Virus record (IMG/VR): IMGVR_UViG_3300010160_002442
Coordinates: 1-20,631 of that record
DNA: 20,631 nt
From: a virus
Direction: 5' to 3' (one strand)
Under the pieces are notes generated by a model. The model had not been told where the DNA came from and searched no databases. It was given only the letters and a program-made list of their open reading frames with translations. Each line of letters starts with the position of its first letter. Position 1 is the stretch's first letter. Below are positions 10,998 through 20,362 of this stretch, piece by piece. The position numbers and the translations under genes are program-made.

Positions 10998-11072
10998 TGG
11001 TGCCGCCAACAGGAATCGAACCTATATCTAACGCTTAGGACGCGCCTGTTCTATCCATTGAACTATGGAGGC
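10998..11072 (-). tRNA. tRNA-Arg(CCT)
   Basis: Acceptor GCCTCCA/TGGCGGC with one G.U-type pair, anticodon loop GTCCTAA (CCT), normal T-loop TTCGATT, A73 and encoded CCA. Reads AGG codons, rare in many proteobacteria. Confidence 0.93.
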
Positions 11073-11112
11073 AAATAAGGATAGGCTTTTCACCTAATGG
11101 ATGCATGATGTT

Positions 11113-11150
11113 ACGACCGAGTATTGGGTCGTTTGCGGTGCGACCGCAAA
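11113..11150 (-). other. Tandem hairpins between tRNA-Tyr and tRNA-Arg(CCT)
   Basis: The 82-nt spacer between two tRNAs holds two adjacent perfect stems: TTTGCGGT/ACCGCAAA (8 bp, 3-nt loop, 11132-11150) and ACGACC/GGTCGT (6 bp, 8-nt loop, 11113-11132). No U-run follows. They could separate the tRNAs for processing. Confidence 0.45.
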
Positions 11151-11154
11151 ATTT

Positions 11155-11239
11155 TGGTGGACAGGGTAGGATTCGAACCTACGTAGCCAGAGGCGGGAGA
11201 TTTACAGTCTCCTGGTTTTAACCACTCACCCACCTGTCC
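11155..11239 (-). tRNA. tRNA-Tyr(GTA)
   Basis: A class II tRNA with a long variable arm. Acceptor GGACAGG/CCTGTCC, anticodon stem GGAGA/TCTCC around CTGTAAA, T-loop TTCGAAT, A73 and encoded CCA. Confidence 0.95.
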
Positions 11240-11249
11240 ATTGTACATA

Positions 11250-11353
11250 CCATATAGAAGTACACTAGTGAAATCGCACTACCTCAGTTTCACGCTGAGT
11301 TACCAGTAGTTACGGAAGCATTGTCCTCCTGCGAATAATGTACTTCTATATGG
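11250..11353 (-). ncRNA. Long-stem structured RNA E1
   Basis: The two ends are a perfect 15-bp inverted repeat (CCATATAGAAGTACA at both 5' ends of the duplex) extended by a U.G and two A-U pairs. The interior of about 70 nt has its own stems, CTCAG/CTGAG with a 7-nt loop inside ACTAC/GTAGT, and GGAGG/CTTCC. The first bases (CCA) coincide with the 3' end of the upstream tRNA-like element, and tRNA-Tyr starts 10 nt downstream. No coding capacity or U-run is seen. The 5' arm shares GAAGYACATTAT with E2. Role unknown; the geometry resembles RNase III processing stalks of pre-rRNA. Confidence 0.6.
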
Positions 11354-11426
11354 AATCCATTGTGAGCAGGGTTCGAACCTGCATAACGCCCGAGAGCTTA
11401 TCTTAACCAATTAGATGATCACGGAT
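11351..11426 (-). tRNA. Degenerate tRNA-like element
   Basis: This 76-nt segment has a normal D-arm (ATCT-AATTGGTTA-AGAT), a perfect T-arm (GCAGG-TTCGAAC-CCTGC) and ends in CCA, but the anticodon arm is reduced to about 17 nt without a proper 5-bp stem, and the 3' acceptor strand has a 3-nt insertion (TCAC-AAT-GGAT against ATCC-GTGA). No anticodon can be assigned. It is either a decaying tRNA or a tRNA mimic. Its CCA overlaps the first bases of E1. Confidence 0.5.
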
Positions 11427-11474
11427 TCATCGGGTCATGACTCCCAATTCTGGGGAAGGGTAATTAGTCCTTCT

Positions 11475-11563
11475 TACCATATTGAAACACACTATAATTC
11501 TCAGTTTAACGGCACAGAGTTAACTTGGCATGAGAAACAGATATAATGTGCTTCAATATGGTA
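11475..11563 (-). ncRNA. Long-stem structured RNA E2
   Basis: The 5' arm TACCATATTGAAGCACATTA pairs with the 3' arm over 22 bp with just two imperfect pairs, both G.U in the minus-strand transcript (they would be A.C in the opposite strand). Inside, TTCTCA pairs with TGAGAA, and AGTTAAC with GTTAAACT (one bulged A) closing an 8-nt loop. Exactly 89 nt long, the same as E3. Role unknown. Confidence 0.65.
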
Positions 11564-11631
11564 GCCAGTGTTGCTGGCTTGGGAATCCCGGTCCTCGCTG
11601 GAATGGTTACCAACCTACATACCACCCTCCA
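11564..11631 (-). other. Structured spacer between E3 and E2
   Basis: These 68 nt occupy the place where the neighbouring gaps hold a tRNA, but no canonical tRNA can be drawn. Short hairpins are visible: AGCCAG/CTGGCT (5-nt loop), GGG/CCC, and TGG/CCA within TGGA/TCCA. The following E2 arm supplies ACCA, as it would after a tRNA. It may be a highly diverged tRNA or an independent RNA. Confidence 0.35.
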
Positions 11632-11720
11632 TACCATAGAAAAACACACTCGGGGATGTGCTGAAAGTACCCCTTGATGATCCTAAATCTTTATGTTTTA
11701 GAATGTGTTTGTCTATGGTA
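11632..11720 (-). ncRNA. Long-stem structured RNA E3
   Basis: The ends TACCATAGACAAACACATTC and its partner form about 19 bp with one mismatch and one U.G pair. Inside are CTAAA/TTTAG and GGGG/CCCC stems. The first bases ACCA of the 5' arm are also the discriminator and CCA of tRNA-Lys, so forming the stem and maturing the tRNA 3' end would compete or be ordered. 89 nt, like E2. Confidence 0.6.
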
Positions 11721-11789
11721 GGTCTGGAAGGTAACGCTCCTTCTTAGTCGGATTAAAAGTCCGATACTTTACTTTTAAGTTACAAACCC
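11716..11789 (-). tRNA. tRNA-Lys(TTT) with non-canonical elbow
   Basis: A complete 74-nt cloverleaf: acceptor GGGTTTG/CAGACCT, D-arm ACTT/AAGT, anticodon stem TCGGA/TCCGA around CTTTTAA, T-stem GAAGG/CCTTC, A73 and CCA. The D-loop (AAAAGTA) lacks the GG pair and the T-loop is AGCGTTA instead of TTCGANN, so the usual D-loop/T-loop contacts are altered. Standard tRNA models may score it low. Confidence 0.8.
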
Positions 11790-11797
11790 AGTGTGTA

Positions 11798-11913
11798 AGA
11801 TCATATTGAAACTCACTCGCATCTGCTTTTGGAGCCGCGTGTTCTTTCCCCGTTTTTCCAAGACTAGTACTTGGGGGGATGTGCCCATTTACACCAGAGC
11901 TTCAATATGACCT
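11798..11913 (-). ncRNA. Long-stem structured RNA E4
   Basis: The ends pair over 17 bp (AGGTCATATTGAAGCTC with its partner), with two G.U pairs in the minus transcript. The interior has CCAAG/CTTGG (7-nt loop) stacked inside CCCC/GGGG. It is the first element after the promoter and boxA leader at 11935-12002. No reading frame of note and no U-run. Confidence 0.6.
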
Positions 11914-11934
11914 CACAGTCATGTTTTTCATCGA

Positions 11935-11965
11935 CTTGTTAAAGAGCGCGTTAATCTCTTAACGC
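11935..11965 (-). promoter_or_regulatory. rRNA-type antitermination leader (hairpin + boxA)
   Basis: Directly after the promoter, GCGTTA/TAACGC forms a 6-bp hairpin (11948-11965, boxB-like position), followed at once by GCTCTTTAACAAG (11935-11947). The core GCTCTTTAACA is the boxA of proteobacterial rRNA operons, bound as RNA by NusB/NusE. In rrn leaders the order is also boxB hairpin then boxA. This suggests the untranslated tRNA/RNA operon is protected from Rho termination. Confidence 0.75.
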
Positions 11966-11973
11966 ATACAAGC

Positions 11974-12002
11974 ATTATACGGCAAGTTGAATTACTTGTC
12001 AA
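11974..12002 (-). promoter_or_regulatory. Perfect consensus sigma70 promoter of the E4-to-tRNA-Pro operon
   Basis: TTGACA (11997-12002), 17-nt spacer, TATAAT (11974-11979). It reads into the boxA leader, E4, tRNA-Lys, E3, E2, E1 and tRNAs Tyr, Arg, Thr and Pro, and possibly on into the glycosyltransferase genes. Confidence 0.9.
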
Positions 12003-12015
12003 CCGTGCCTGACAT

Positions 12016-12039
12016 GAAAAAGCGCGGACCAACCGCGCT
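12016..12039 (-). terminator. Intrinsic terminator
   Basis: On the minus strand AGCGCGG/CCGCGCT forms a 7-bp GC-rich stem with a 5-nt loop followed by TTTTT. It ends the transcript of the 86-aa gene just before the next promoter. Confidence 0.85.
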
Positions 12040-12058
12040 GTTATCCAAACTTGGTTGG

Positions 12059-12319
12059 TTAGATGATGTTGATAACAACAGACTCGATAAAATCGGCAGA
12101 TTCGGTATGAGTGTTTAGAAACAGTACAAACTCATCGGCTGCAGCTTGATCAATGAATCTCCACTCGCTTGTAACAGGCGAGTGGACGTGTGGCTTGACC
12201 TCGGTTTGTTTAGTTCCGTACATGGCACGAAGTTTTGCTGACAAGTCCTGACTGTATGTCTGTGACAGCTTAGTTTTTTCTACTTTCCAAATAATAGACA
12301 CTGACTTAGTGAAATTCAT
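12059..12319 (-). CDS. Hypothetical 86-aa protein
   Basis: Begins MNFTKSVSIIWKVEKTKLSQ and has a helical basic part (LSAKLRAMYGTKQTEVKPHV) and an acidic end (NTHTESADFIESVVINII). No known motif. GGATAC lies upstream of the ATG and an intrinsic terminator follows 19 nt after the stop, which supports a real transcription unit end. Confidence 0.65.
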   Translation of the reverse strand: MNFTKSVSIIWKVEKTKLSQTYSQDLSAKLRAMYGTKQTEVKPHVHSPVTSEWRFIDQAAADEFVLFLNTHTESADFIESVVINII

Positions 12320-12362: not shown

Positions 12363-12557
12363 TTAACCTGTGGTTGCTTTGTCTGATTTAGATGCATCGG
12401 GCACGTTTGGGGGCCTACCTGCTTTACGAGGTGCACCCCAGGCTGAATAGTTCACACCTTCGATCCGGCCGCTGACTCCGGTGGCCACTTGTTGAATCTT
12501 ACCACCCTTGGCCAGGAACTCTTCCATAGCAGCATCTCGTTGTTGTTGTTCGGTCAT
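12363..12557 (-). CDS. Hypothetical 64-aa phage protein (FLAKGGKIQ type)
   Basis: Begins MTEQQQRDAAMEEFLAKGGK, then IQQVATGVSGRIEGVNYSAW and a basic, proline-rich tail (GAPRKAGRPPNVPDASK). The 'F-L-x-K-G-G-K-I-x-x-V' start recurs in small phage proteins and looks like a helix followed by a DNA- or RNA-contacting loop, but its function is not known to me. AAGGAT is placed about 10 nt before the ATG. Confidence 0.65.
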   Translation of the reverse strand: MTEQQQRDAAMEEFLAKGGKIQQVATGVSGRIEGVNYSAWGAPRKAGRPPNVPDASKSDKATTG

Positions 12558-12660: not shown

Positions 12661-12734
12661 TGGAGCGGGTAGCGAGAATCGAACTCGCGAATAAACCTTG
12701 GCAAAGTTTCAGGTTACCATTACATCATACCCGC
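12661..12734 (-). tRNA. tRNA-Gly(GCC)
   Basis: Acceptor GCGGGTA/TACCCGC, anticodon loop TTGCCAA, T-arm GCGAG-TTCGATT-CTCGC, T73 (normal for Gly) and encoded CCA. Its first 10 nt overlap the 3' end of the omega-like gene. Confidence 0.95.
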
Positions 12735-12970
12735 CTGTTGGGCGCTCTAATTCGCTTGAGATACTCTTCGCCAACTGTGCCGTTTTGCACGTCCAACAAG
12801 GCACTCACAATTGGATTCTCGTAAGCCTGCTTCTGGCGTTGGATGTTATGCCGTTCAATGTCACGAGCACGGTGGCAAGCAATCAACACCAGATTGTATC
12901 GATTCCCGCCGGCATTTTCCACGCATTTTTCAGTGTTAATACCAATACCACGACTAAGGGTTACATTCAT
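12725..12970 (-). CDS. rpoZ: RNA polymerase omega subunit-like protein
   Basis: An 81-aa protein. The segment CVENAGGNRYNLVLIACHRA followed by RDIE (about 16-39) matches the omega signature (V-E-x-x-x-N-R-F-x-L-V-x-x-A-x-x-R-A-R), and PIVSALLDVQNGTV later corresponds to the T-V-x-A-L-x-E-I-x-x-G segment. Cellular omega binds the beta' C-terminus and helps RNA polymerase assembly. A phage copy could replace host omega or alter polymerase. The start is the ATG at 12970 with GAGG 7 nt upstream, and a TATAAATT late-promoter-like box lies 15 nt before it. The stop codon lies inside tRNA-Gly(GCC), so complete tRNA and mRNA cannot come from the same processed molecule. Confidence 0.75.
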   Translation of the reverse strand: MNVTLSRGIGINTEKCVENAGGNRYNLVLIACHRARDIERHNIQRQKQAYENPIVSALLDVQNGTVGEEYLKRIRAPNRRV

Positions 12971-12984
12971 CAAAGACCTCGGTT

Positions 12985-18412: not shown

Positions 18413-18710
18413 TGGTGCTCCGAGCCGGAATCGAACCGGCATGCCGTTAAGCGAGAGATTTTCTTACCACTATAGTTTTCACTACCCTTTCGGTTTGGTG
18501 GTCTGGACTATACCTTCATCATAGTATTACTACCTTAGATGCCCGCCGTCTAGTCTCTACACGTTCAAAGTAATTTCTCACTAAGCTTCGCTCGGTATTA
18601 GCATTTTACAGCCTTCACCGAATTTGACGGGTTCTGCTCCTGAGATTTCCCTCAAGGCACTCAAATTTTACTCTCAAGTCTCTTGTGTTTACCTATTTCA
18701 CCATCGGAGC
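18413..18710 (-). tRNA. tRNA-Leu(TAA) split by a group I intron
   Basis: Exon 1 is 18676-18710 (starts GCTCCGA, ends in the anticodon loop at CTT) and exon 2 is 18413-18462 (starts AAAATCTCT). Joined, they give anticodon stem AGAGA/TCTCT around CTTAAAA, i.e. UAA, acceptor GCTCCGA/TCGGAGC, a class II variable arm, T-loop TTCGATT, A73 and CCA. The break lies between U34 and A35, the same site as the intron of cyanobacterial and plastid tRNA-Leu(UAA). Confidence 0.92.
18463..18675 (-). other. Group I self-splicing intron, 213 nt, without ORF
   Basis: The intron follows U34 of the exon and ends in G (the expected omega-G). Core elements seen in order: GTCAAATTC and GCTAATACCGAGC in the P3/P4-J region, GAGACTAGACGG (P7/P3 strand) and GAAGGTATAGTCC (the P7 3' strand). 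These match the tRNA-Leu(UAA) intron family (subgroup IC3 by recollection). No room for an endonuclease gene; an HNH gene lies directly upstream of exon 1 instead. Confidence 0.9.
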
Positions 18711-19295
18711 AATTAATTTCTTCATCCTACTGTAGTTCCCGCCCTTTGCAGCTAAACCTACTTCTATCAACGATTGTCGTATGTTACGACACTTAGCGTA
18801 TGCTGTCAACAGCATTTGATCACTAACTTTTACTTTTCCTGAATTGATATTTCTACCTCTCCAAGTAGAAGTTAGTGCGTGACAATTACAACACAATAAC
18901 TTAAGATTATCCTTAACGTTATTGCAATTATTACCGTCGACGTGTTCTAATTCTAGAGGTATACTAACTGACTTCCATTCAGTTAATCCGCAATCCTCGC
19001 ATCTATGTCCTCTTTCTTGGAGCAAAGCTGCTTTGTGATTTCCTGTACCATTATACTCAAATAATGTTCTGGAATAATTTCCCTTTGCCCAATTCATTGC
19101 ATCTTTAGTTTCCTGCGGTAATAACTTGTATACTTCAGACATTGGTGATCTTTTACCAGTATCATAAACTAATTTAGTTTTATCTGAATTAATTTTTTTC
19201 AGCACATCACACCCTGCAGGTCTTTTACTACAACAATTCTTACCATTCTTCAATGTAAAATTTGATATCTTACCACATCCATACTCACATAACAT
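18693..19295 (-). CDS. HNH homing endonuclease overlapping tRNA-Leu exon 1
   Basis: A 200-aa protein. The N-terminus has a cysteine cluster (CEYGCG ... CCSKRPAGC) that may bind zinc. The catalytic core runs GHRCEDCGLTEW (97-108), LELEHVDGNN (114-123), NLKLLCCNCHAL (130-141): CxxC plus CxxC zinc knuckles with His118, Asn130 and His139 as the H-N-H residues. A C-terminal helix-turn-helix-like part follows. AGGAG precedes the ATG and a GATAAATA late box lies 20 nt upstream. Its last five codons plus stop (APMVK) are encoded by the first 18 nt of the intron-bearing tRNA-Leu, so it is free-standing but sits against the intron's host gene. Confidence 0.87.
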   Translation of the reverse strand: MLCEYGCGKISNFTLKNGKNCCSKRPAGCDVLKKINSDKTKLVYDTGKRSPMSEVYKLLPQETKDAMNWAKGNYSRTLFEYNGTGNHKAALLQERGHRCEDCGLTEWKSVSIPLELEHVDGNNCNNVKDNLKLLCCNCHALTSTWRGRNINSGKVKVSDQMLLTAYAKCRNIRQSLIEVGLAAKGGNYSRMKKLIAPMVK

Positions 19296-20014: not shown

Positions 20015-20134
20015 GTACAGAGAAACACGCTATCCTGGCTCCGTGCTGCGAAGTGTGCAGCATAATCAACACACAGGTTCTGTCCGCATCGGATGTTTGG
20101 ACTTCAGATTAGATCATAGCATGTTTCTCTGTAC
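20015..20134 (-). ncRNA. Long-stem structured RNA E5
   Basis: The ends (5' arm GTACAGAGAAACATGCTAT) pair over 19 bp with one U.G in the minus transcript. The 80-nt interior holds TGCTGC/GCAGCA with a 7-nt loop and GTCC/GGAC. It lies between E6 and tRNA-Glu. No coding potential seen. Confidence 0.62.
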
Positions 20135-20159: not shown

Positions 20160-20195
20160 TAGTAAAGCACACTGACCACCAATGTACTTTACTAT
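20159..20195 (-). ncRNA. Long-stem RNA hairpin E6
   Basis: A continuous hairpin of about 16 bp (5' arm ATAGTAAAGTACATTG) with a 5-nt loop and two U.G pairs. It shares the AAGTACATT motif with the 5' arms of E1 and E2 but has no internal domain, so it is a minimal member of the family. Confidence 0.55.
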
Positions 20196-20333: not shown

Positions 20334-20362
20334 ATTATACAGTGCTTTCAATTTGTTGTCAA
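20334..20362 (-). promoter_or_regulatory. Perfect consensus sigma70 promoter of the tRNA-Glu-to-Ser operon
   Basis: TTGACA (20357-20362), 17-nt spacer, TATAAT (20334-20339). It reads into E8, E6, E5 and tRNAs Glu, Trp, fMet, Asn, Cys and Ser. Confidence 0.9.

Follow-up and report, generated by a model that had tools for sequence, protein, structure and literature searches.

Hairpins capping tRNA 3′ ends in large tRNA-rich phages: a previously undescribed family, probably of cut-here spacers, that has moved between tRNAs

The closest described counterparts of the hairpins reported here are the RNase III stalks of rRNA precursors, small phage RNAs made beside tRNAs, the intervening segment of permuted tmRNAs and, at the DNA level, MITEs. 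For pre-16S rRNA, a leader-trailer helix of more than 17 bp is described as needed (PMC10250234), and the boxA consensus of rRNA operons is given as GYTCTTTAANA (PMC5725501). Like these stalks, the elements studied here (E elements) present a long conserved helix within a polycistronic stable-RNA transcript that has a promoter and a boxA in front; unlike them, the E helix lies between tRNAs, starts within the CCA of the upstream tRNA, encloses no mature RNA and is a putative cleavage site. Species 1 and 2 of phage T4 (rnaC and rnaD) are likewise small RNAs other than tRNAs, encoded next to tRNA-Arg within the tRNA cluster of a phage; rnaC contains a T-arm-like hairpin, and some of the bodies here have a T-arm. 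When we read and folded rnaC and rnaD, we found neither a CCA-anchored handle nor a shared handle sequence, and rnaD folded with a z-score of only -0.83.

In two-piece tmRNAs, the segment between the CCA and the 5′ end must be removed (PMC9004378). Such a segment resembles an E element in placing a hairpin that needs removal between a CCA end and a 5′ end, with the difference that it joins two ends of one RNA whereas E elements join two neighbouring tRNAs. MITEs share with the E elements conserved inverted ends (here the handles), a variable centre, presence or absence at one site and occurrence at many sites; they differ in that the E elements have no target-site duplication in three comparisons, a fixed tie to the tRNA CCA and a wobble bias of the sense RNA. 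Finally, GOLLD and ROOL are phage non-coding RNAs described near tRNA islands (PMC12286853), which are much larger and more ornate than the E elements and have another structure. Rfam gave no GOLLD or ROOL match in the DNA analysed here; a GOLLD RNA (179.2 bits) lies within the tRNA array of Xanthomonas phage X1 (L179, 17344-17773). In the literature searched, which was mostly the freely accessible part, we found no description of hairpins of the E type. They form a real and conserved RNA family, for which the Rfam and literature searches show no name.

The window, that is the whole stretch of DNA analysed, is a virus record of 20,631 bases with 24 tRNA genes called by ARAGORN, every one on the minus strand, and a further tRNA-Lys found by Rfam. 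The first-pass annotation had described four long-stem segments, E1 to E4, between these tRNAs, with a common motif in their 5′ arms; both the segments and the motif are present, with small coordinate corrections and minus-strand RNAfold z-scores from -4.55 to -6.02. All lie on the minus strand. E1 (11250-11353) has 18 bp around a 68-nt loop (z -5.89), with tRNA-Tyr 11 nt downstream, a spacing taken from the same element in locus L003. E2 (11475-11563) has 22 bp and a 45-nt loop (z -6.02), and E3 (11632-11720) has 20 positions including a mismatch and a 49-nt loop (z -5.99). E4 (11794-11917; z -4.55) is of a leader type, with a 21-position stem and an 82-nt loop; with its outer pairs it measures 124 nt, 4 nt beyond the earlier limit of 11913, and it stands between a boxA and tRNA-Lys with no CCA upstream. 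Plus-strand z-scores for E1 to E4 (-5.05, -4.84, -4.31 and -2.27) are weaker than those of the minus strand yet remain clearly negative, the latter being expected for near-palindromes.

A fifth, leader-type hairpin, E5 (20015-20134, minus strand), has a 19-bp stem ahead of tRNA-Glu and also lacks an upstream CCA. Its body is near-constant across three relatives while the handle varies: in an alignment of four sequences (A1), two pairs are changed on both sides between the window and L007, one of which is broken (C.A) in L004. Between the promoter at 20334-20362 and E5 lies a short-loop hairpin with the handle core (20161-20193, minus strand), which also occurs in L003. A minus-strand stem scan of the window returned four stems scoring at least 18 (E1, E2, E4 and E5) and five scoring at least 16 (E3 being added), against means of 0.1 and 0.7 in 30 dinucleotide shuffles.

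Next to these hairpins are both recognisable and unusual tRNA-like segments, all on the minus strand. A tRNA-Lys(UUU) at 11716-11789, with non-canonical D and T loops, scores 52.9 bits with the Rfam tRNA model and is not called by ARAGORN; its CCA (11716-11718) falls inside the E3 handle. The T loop reads AGCGUUA, identically in L004, and L005 to L007 carry a canonical tRNA-Lys instead. Segment x1 (11559-11630), which ends in CACUGGCUACCA, has no recognisable tRNA, and its CCA opens the E2 handle; x1 is near-unchanged in L004 (about 12743-12816) though the hairpins beside it differ there. The tRNA-like segment x2 (11351-11427), for which acceptor-like ends, a T-arm and a CCA can be read from the sequence, opens the E1 handle with that CCA and has no tRNA call from ARAGORN or Rfam.

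The view that E1 to E4 match no named RNA family was upheld. At the gathering score, Rfam 15 returned over the whole window only weak, chance-level matches apart from tRNAs and a group I intron, and none on E1 to E4; by E-value over 11060-12060 the best weak element match was mir-653 (26.2 bits against a cut-off of 77). The tRNA covariance model left E1 to E4 unmatched up to E=10, no T-arm was found in E1 to E5, no terminator-like structure (short GC-rich stem, small loop, T run) was called on the minus strand of E1 to E4, and no tmRNA was called in the window. The group I intron (18482-18685, minus strand, 56.7 bits in Rfam) adjoins an ORF at 18693-19295 (minus strand) that looks HNH endonuclease-like by eye and has no Pfam match. 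Small proteins encoded within the tRNA array at 12363-12557 and 12725-12973 (both minus strand) show a SutA RNA polymerase-binding domain (E 2.9e-10) and, slightly below the cut-off, an omega/Rpb6-like match.

The promoter proposed upstream of the E4-tRNA operon proved to be a sigma-70 consensus promoter, TTGACA-17-TATAAT, at 11974-12002 on the minus strand (read from 12002 to 11974), with 12 of 12 consensus bases. Downstream of it, in the arrangement of an rRNA-type antitermination leader, an exact match to the rRNA-type boxA, GCTCTTTAACAA, occupies 11936-11947 (minus strand). It is the sole exact match in the window, where up to two mismatches give four matches against 2.43 expected. Just before the boxA a boxB-like hairpin, GCGTTAA-GAGA-TTAACGC (11948-11965, minus strand), can be read from the sequence and is the weak part of the leader. 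Across loci, such hairpins number 22 of 49 against 14 of 49 shuffled, which is not convincing, and we rejected boxB as a general feature.

A number of phage tRNA arrays start with a strict boxA, TGYTCTTTAAMAA, placed behind a sigma-70 promoter. The fetched loci contain 70 copies of this boxA in tRNA-sense orientation and none in antisense, and 50 of the 70 end 5-25 nt ahead of a tRNA. A promoter lies within 90 nt for 38 of 49 strict sites before a tRNA, compared with 28 of 810 random stretches (270 loci). Only this strict form was used, because boxA with up to two mismatches is also frequent on the antisense strand (158 sense, 71 antisense). The literature searched, again mostly freely accessible, yielded no description of boxA in phage tRNA operons. 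The likeness to rRNA processing stalks that had been drawn for the window gains support from the boxA leader and fails in another respect, since small RNAs each set in its own stalk are an unlikely description of elements whose fixed part is the handle, anchored on the upstream CCA, and whose bodies are interchangeable and in some cases only 3-9 nt long.

To place the hairpins in a family, 56 IMG/VR loci were fetched by way of an RNaseH_like neighbour protein (PF04308), and a stem scan of these revealed many hairpins with the same handle between tRNAs. A two-arm pattern, which fixed handle positions 1-6, 9, 10, 15 and 17, then matched at least 120 and at least 119 stretches of IMG/VR, of which 214 loci were analysed; family counts are lower bounds and the IMG/VR sample is not random. 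A later core fixed positions 9, 10, 15 and 17 and was used on loci that came mostly from the two-arm pattern. Among the matches listed, there were 261 places in the 214 loci. A called tRNA lies directly at one handle end in 210 of these; of the other 51, 37 have a tRNA within 400 nt and 14 have none. A further 382 core hairpins are without a same-strand tRNA within 400 nt, and we assume that most are the same palindromes read on the opposite strand. In the fetched loci, 160 of 2776 tRNA junctions carry an element.

One scan of 84,980 species genomes returned no match to the element pattern (loops of 22-52 nt), and the tmRNA form of the pattern (loops of 30-60 nt) had none in species genomes either; a host origin of the motif was rejected on these grounds. 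A BLAST search with the arms joined revealed no clear element among cultured phages, and the cultured carrier, phage BUCT-ZZ01 (ON615601; host Synechococcus elongatus PCC 7942), was reached via a protein search instead. When eight cultured relatives were scanned, a related tRNA-adjacent hairpin was seen only in BUCT-ZZ01, and Xanthomonas phage X1 has a related hairpin only in its tmRNA. The BUCT-ZZ01 hairpin follows a tRNA-Lys (L183, 12951-13045), and its helix begins with the A of the CCA. The BUCT-ZZ01 array also contains a tRNA-Pyl(CTA)-like gene called by ARAGORN (L183, 17943-18018). We considered the RNaseH_like protein as a dedicated processing enzyme and set this aside, since a strict partnership is not apparent: the protein accompanies the elements in 15 of 25 records, which include fragments, and no handle was found in the 40 kb around its gene in phages DLP6 and KVP40.

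The constant part of an element is a handle of about 17-20 bp, whose majority form is CCAUAUAAAAACACAUU ... AGUGUGUUUCUAUAUGG. Allowing single mismatches, the median helix length in 163 elements is 20 bp, a length that is partly due to the construction of the pattern. Among the matches listed, the handle opens with the CCA of the upstream tRNA in each of the 185 elements for which such a tRNA is called, this CCA supplying its first three bases. The two closing bases of the handle, GG, coincide with the start of the following tRNA in 67 elements. In loci not fetched by the two-arm pattern, the far strand still ends in UGG in 19 of 21 elements whose next tRNA is at least 4 nt away or absent. Over all sources the UGG end is found in 140 of 146, although the pattern had set UGG for most. 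Because the UGG end persists where the next tRNA gives no GG, we conclude that the tRNA's own CCA is paired. On the tRNA-sense transcript, the CCA end together with the 14-17 nt or so that follow it can pair with a downstream strand ending in UGG, giving a nearly continuous handle with conserved sequence and sense-strand wobbles, in which an exchangeable body of 3 to more than 100 nt closes the helix.

Pairing was also seen where the 3′ strand had not been selected. Of 58 trailers picked by the 5′ arm sequence alone, 47 form a helix scoring at least 12, as do none of 290 shuffled downstream controls; 37 reach a score of at least 15, and 11 have no helix scoring at least 12. For unselected spacers, a terminal helix scoring at least 12 is found in 33 of 142, compared with 12 of 684 mismatched spacer ends. 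At positions left free by the pattern, covariation is clear: position 7 is paired in 106 of 109 (2000 permutations: mean 59.7, maximum 76) and position 18 in 92 of 109 (permuted mean 50.7, maximum 69), and it fades beyond, with 58 of 109 at position 19 against a permuted maximum of 63. In a 60-row alignment (A2), 95.6% of cells are paired against at most 62.6% when the strands are slid, and 63 cells are changed on both sides against 19.8 when shuffled; since 52 of the 60 rows are from loci fetched by the pattern, some of this pairing is by construction. As body length varies too much for a covariance model of the family, none was built, and structure was tested by alignment and permutation. 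The homologue search and covariation test suggested in the first-pass annotation thus yielded homologues with compensatory changes, and the idea of a structured RNA family with signs of selection on the transcribed strand is supported.

Covariation alone is indecisive between RNA and DNA, because DNA palindromes can homogenise their arms too. The arms could form a DNA-level inverted repeat, as a cruciform or a recombinase site of the attC kind, with an incidental RNA structure; palindromic arms around a variable centre do recall the architecture of integron attC sites. The wobbles point the other way. At positions 11 and 14, G.U occurs 40 times and A.C never among 133 body clusters, a bias that fits selection on the tRNA-sense RNA, and together with position 16 the tally on the tRNA-sense strand is 126 G.U to 0 A.C, of which the position 16 share (86 of 126) may be a single inherited difference. 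Position 16 is U.G in 109 of 163 elements. Positions 12 and 13 were excluded from the strand evidence, because the pattern favours G.U there by construction. Within the window, the earlier argument that imperfect pairs reveal the transcribed strand stands for E2, in which all non-Watson-Crick pairs are G.U on the minus strand, and holds only in part for E3, which also has a C.U at handle position 8. Across the family it meets the same obstacle, position 8 being an unpaired A.C on the tRNA-sense strand in 90 of 163 elements and 72 of 133 body clusters, a misfit with strict RNA pairing that counts in favour of a DNA repeat. It is the wobble bias and the CCA anchor that speak for RNA over DNA, and we consider the DNA repeat highly improbable.

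Next we examined the bodies. They are diverse, with 133-148 clusters in 215-220 elements, and of the 365 core hairpins that lie close to a tRNA on their own strand, 359 have bodies of at least 25 nt and five have bodies of 3-9 nt, two of which sit on a tRNA CCA. The tRNA-Ser/tRNA-Ser junction, for example, has a short body in L015 and a 41-nt loop in L012 and L058. Two further classes of long-stem RNA were noted: GTGTTATC...GATAACAC, with a conserved body of 112-114 nt, and TGTA...TGCA, with a conserved 82-nt body, before tRNA-Gln. The sites of further long-stem RNAs fall in a first group (L010 7275-7430, L012 7691-7846 and L015 8707-8859) and a second group (L023 9013-9136, L026 1560-1711 and L028 9188-9319).

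Some bodies may be functional stable small RNAs, in part tRNA-like, that are freed by the processing of the flanking tRNAs in the manner of T4 species 1 and 2, given that rnaC and rnaD adjoin tRNA-Arg and that rnaC has its T-arm-like hairpin. A T-arm is present in 13 of 163 bodies, against a mean of 0.76 and a maximum of 4 in 50 shuffles, and in seven of these 13 it lies 0-2 nt from the strand pairing with positions 11-17. Permissive ARAGORN called nine of the 163, six of them starting at handle positions 10-14, a count taken without a shuffled control. With this placement the handle can be divided into a stalk of 10 bp and an acceptor-like helix of 7 bp, and some body families stay alike across contexts. 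The large number of body clusters, the bodies of 3-9 nt and the lack of a T-arm in E1 to E5 all speak against small RNAs as the purpose of the family, and we judge this explanation decidedly unlikely. Two related ideas were rejected. Split or permuted tRNAs do not account for the elements, as the junctions examined that have called tRNAs on both sides show whole tRNAs; x1 and x2 of the window are unassigned segments. Neither is every tRNA stalked: a leader-trailer stalk scoring at least 12 is found in just 5 of 813 tRNAs (0 of 3958 controls). All five are tRNA-His (L010 8754, L023 10733, L026 4573, L043 10624 and L044 5053), whose own CCA and trailer pair with the leader at scores of 13-16.

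Similar bodies recur behind different tRNAs: 24 of 43 multi-member clusters and 58 of 116 similar pairs involve more than one tRNA isotype. Furthermore, of the 160 junctions with an element, 33 have a counterpart that lacks one. L241 and L200 share identical Lys and His tRNAs, with a 67-nt element between them in one locus and 7 nt in the other, and the Arg-Ala junction carries different, unrelated elements in L023 and L043 and 6 nt in L026. Presence or absence and body sharing together indicate that elements are exchanged, gained or lost as units, precisely between the CCA and the next tRNA, and because the same tRNA pairs occur without an element, the hairpin is not needed to mature those tRNAs. 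Each element would thus be an optional spacer and not an essential part of one tRNA.

This optional nature keeps a rival strong, in which the elements are mobile or recombining palindromic modules of a MITE-like or intron-like habit that settle between tRNA genes, the RNA hairpin being kept mainly as a harmless insert that lets both tRNAs mature. The sharing of bodies between isotypes, the unit-like presence or absence between near-identical tRNAs, the two unrelated elements at one Arg-Ala junction and the lack of a pattern match in species genomes are all as such modules would have it. However, none of the three filled and empty comparisons (L241/L200, L023/L026 and L043/L026) shows a target-site duplication, the old spacer being replaced; DNA mobility needs neither a sense-strand G.U bias nor CCA pairing; and homologous recombination between handles could swap bodies without a mobile enzyme. 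We regard mobile modules as rather unlikely to be the main explanation, while giving them appreciable weight.

We tentatively favour, with a little less than even confidence, the reading of the E elements as modular, cleavable trailer stalks of polycistronic phage tRNA transcripts. Folding would hide the CCA from exonucleases, and a double-strand-specific nuclease, most likely the RNase III of the host, would cut both strands of the handle. This cut would part the upstream tRNA from the downstream RNA and free the body; the short 3′ tail of the upstream tRNA would then be trimmed to the CCA, and RNase P would take off the 5′ leader of the downstream RNA. Permuted phage tmRNAs that bear a handle would lose their intervening segment by the same cut.

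Judged from the sequences, cutting of the stalk by the RNase III of the host is the most likely mechanism, because the handle is constant, of suitable length and placed on a tRNA 3′ end, its core is met again in some permuted tmRNAs, and the 18 phage records searched gave no RNase III. A helix of about the handle length (17-20 bp) is what RNase III-type enzymes take. Regnier and Grunberg-Manago (1989) reportedly showed that RNase III releases the metY tRNA in E. coli. A search for RNase III (PF14622) gave no match in 18 phage records, possibly fragments, while the control matched 8 of 14 genomes. ARAGORN classes each of the 20 tmRNAs found as permuted; the handle core is in the excised segment, from the CCA to the 5′ end, of three of them, and 17 are without it. 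One permuted tmRNA (L008, 12312-12712) has by eye an odd T loop, GGCAGUG, and a normal-looking T-arm in its intervening segment. The tmRNA handle cores and the promoter and boxA leaders favour a processing role.

Several observations count against trailer stalks. An element is found on just 160 of the 2776 junctions and the same tRNA pairs occur element-free (33 of 160); bodies would be expected to be short often if the handle alone mattered, yet nearly all (359 of 365) have at least 25 nt; E4 and E5 have no upstream CCA, and 11 of the 58 sequence-picked trailers no helix scoring at least 12; and only one of the eight cultured relatives scanned, BUCT-ZZ01, has the related tRNA-adjacent hairpin. 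General RNase III recognition needs less than a conserved A.C at position 8 and a strong sequence conservation, and because these exceed such needs a specific binder is possible.

The tRNAs upstream of the elements are themselves biased: of 163 elements, 121 follow a Lys(UUU), Gln(UUG) or Glu(UUC) tRNA, compared with a share of 329 of 2364 tRNAs in the same loci, and after clustering the figure is 45 of 66. The hairpin could, in keeping with this bias, mask the CCA and so delay or tune these particular tRNAs, or shield them from host defences that cut tRNAs. Other isotypes bear elements too, and since Gln and Glu usually lead after boxA (the first tRNA after a strict boxA is Gln or Glu in 41 of 49), the bias may partly reflect position or descent; we find CCA masking very unlikely.

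Taken together, these results confirm that the E-element observation is real and larger than first described, with CCA pairing, body exchange, the tmRNA link and boxA all going beyond the earlier claims. A wider reading, which we hold to be doubtful, is that of a superfamily of phage RNA modules with a CCA-capping handle and interchangeable bodies, some of them tRNA-descended, which would move between tRNA genes and phages and be cut from the precursor, so that the tRNA operons would be mimics of rRNA operons (promoter, boxA and cleavable stalks) with modular cargo. The finding bears on how phages mature 20-40 tRNAs from long transcripts, and on the purpose of the longer spacers in the arrays. 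The family provides a candidate signal that is both precise and testable: it captures the CCA end, is common to some permuted tmRNAs and travels between tRNA genes, and the cultured carrier BUCT-ZZ01 makes the role of the hairpin testable. Seen alongside the boxA leaders, the family suggests that the tRNA operons of some large phages are copies of rRNA operons in their logic.
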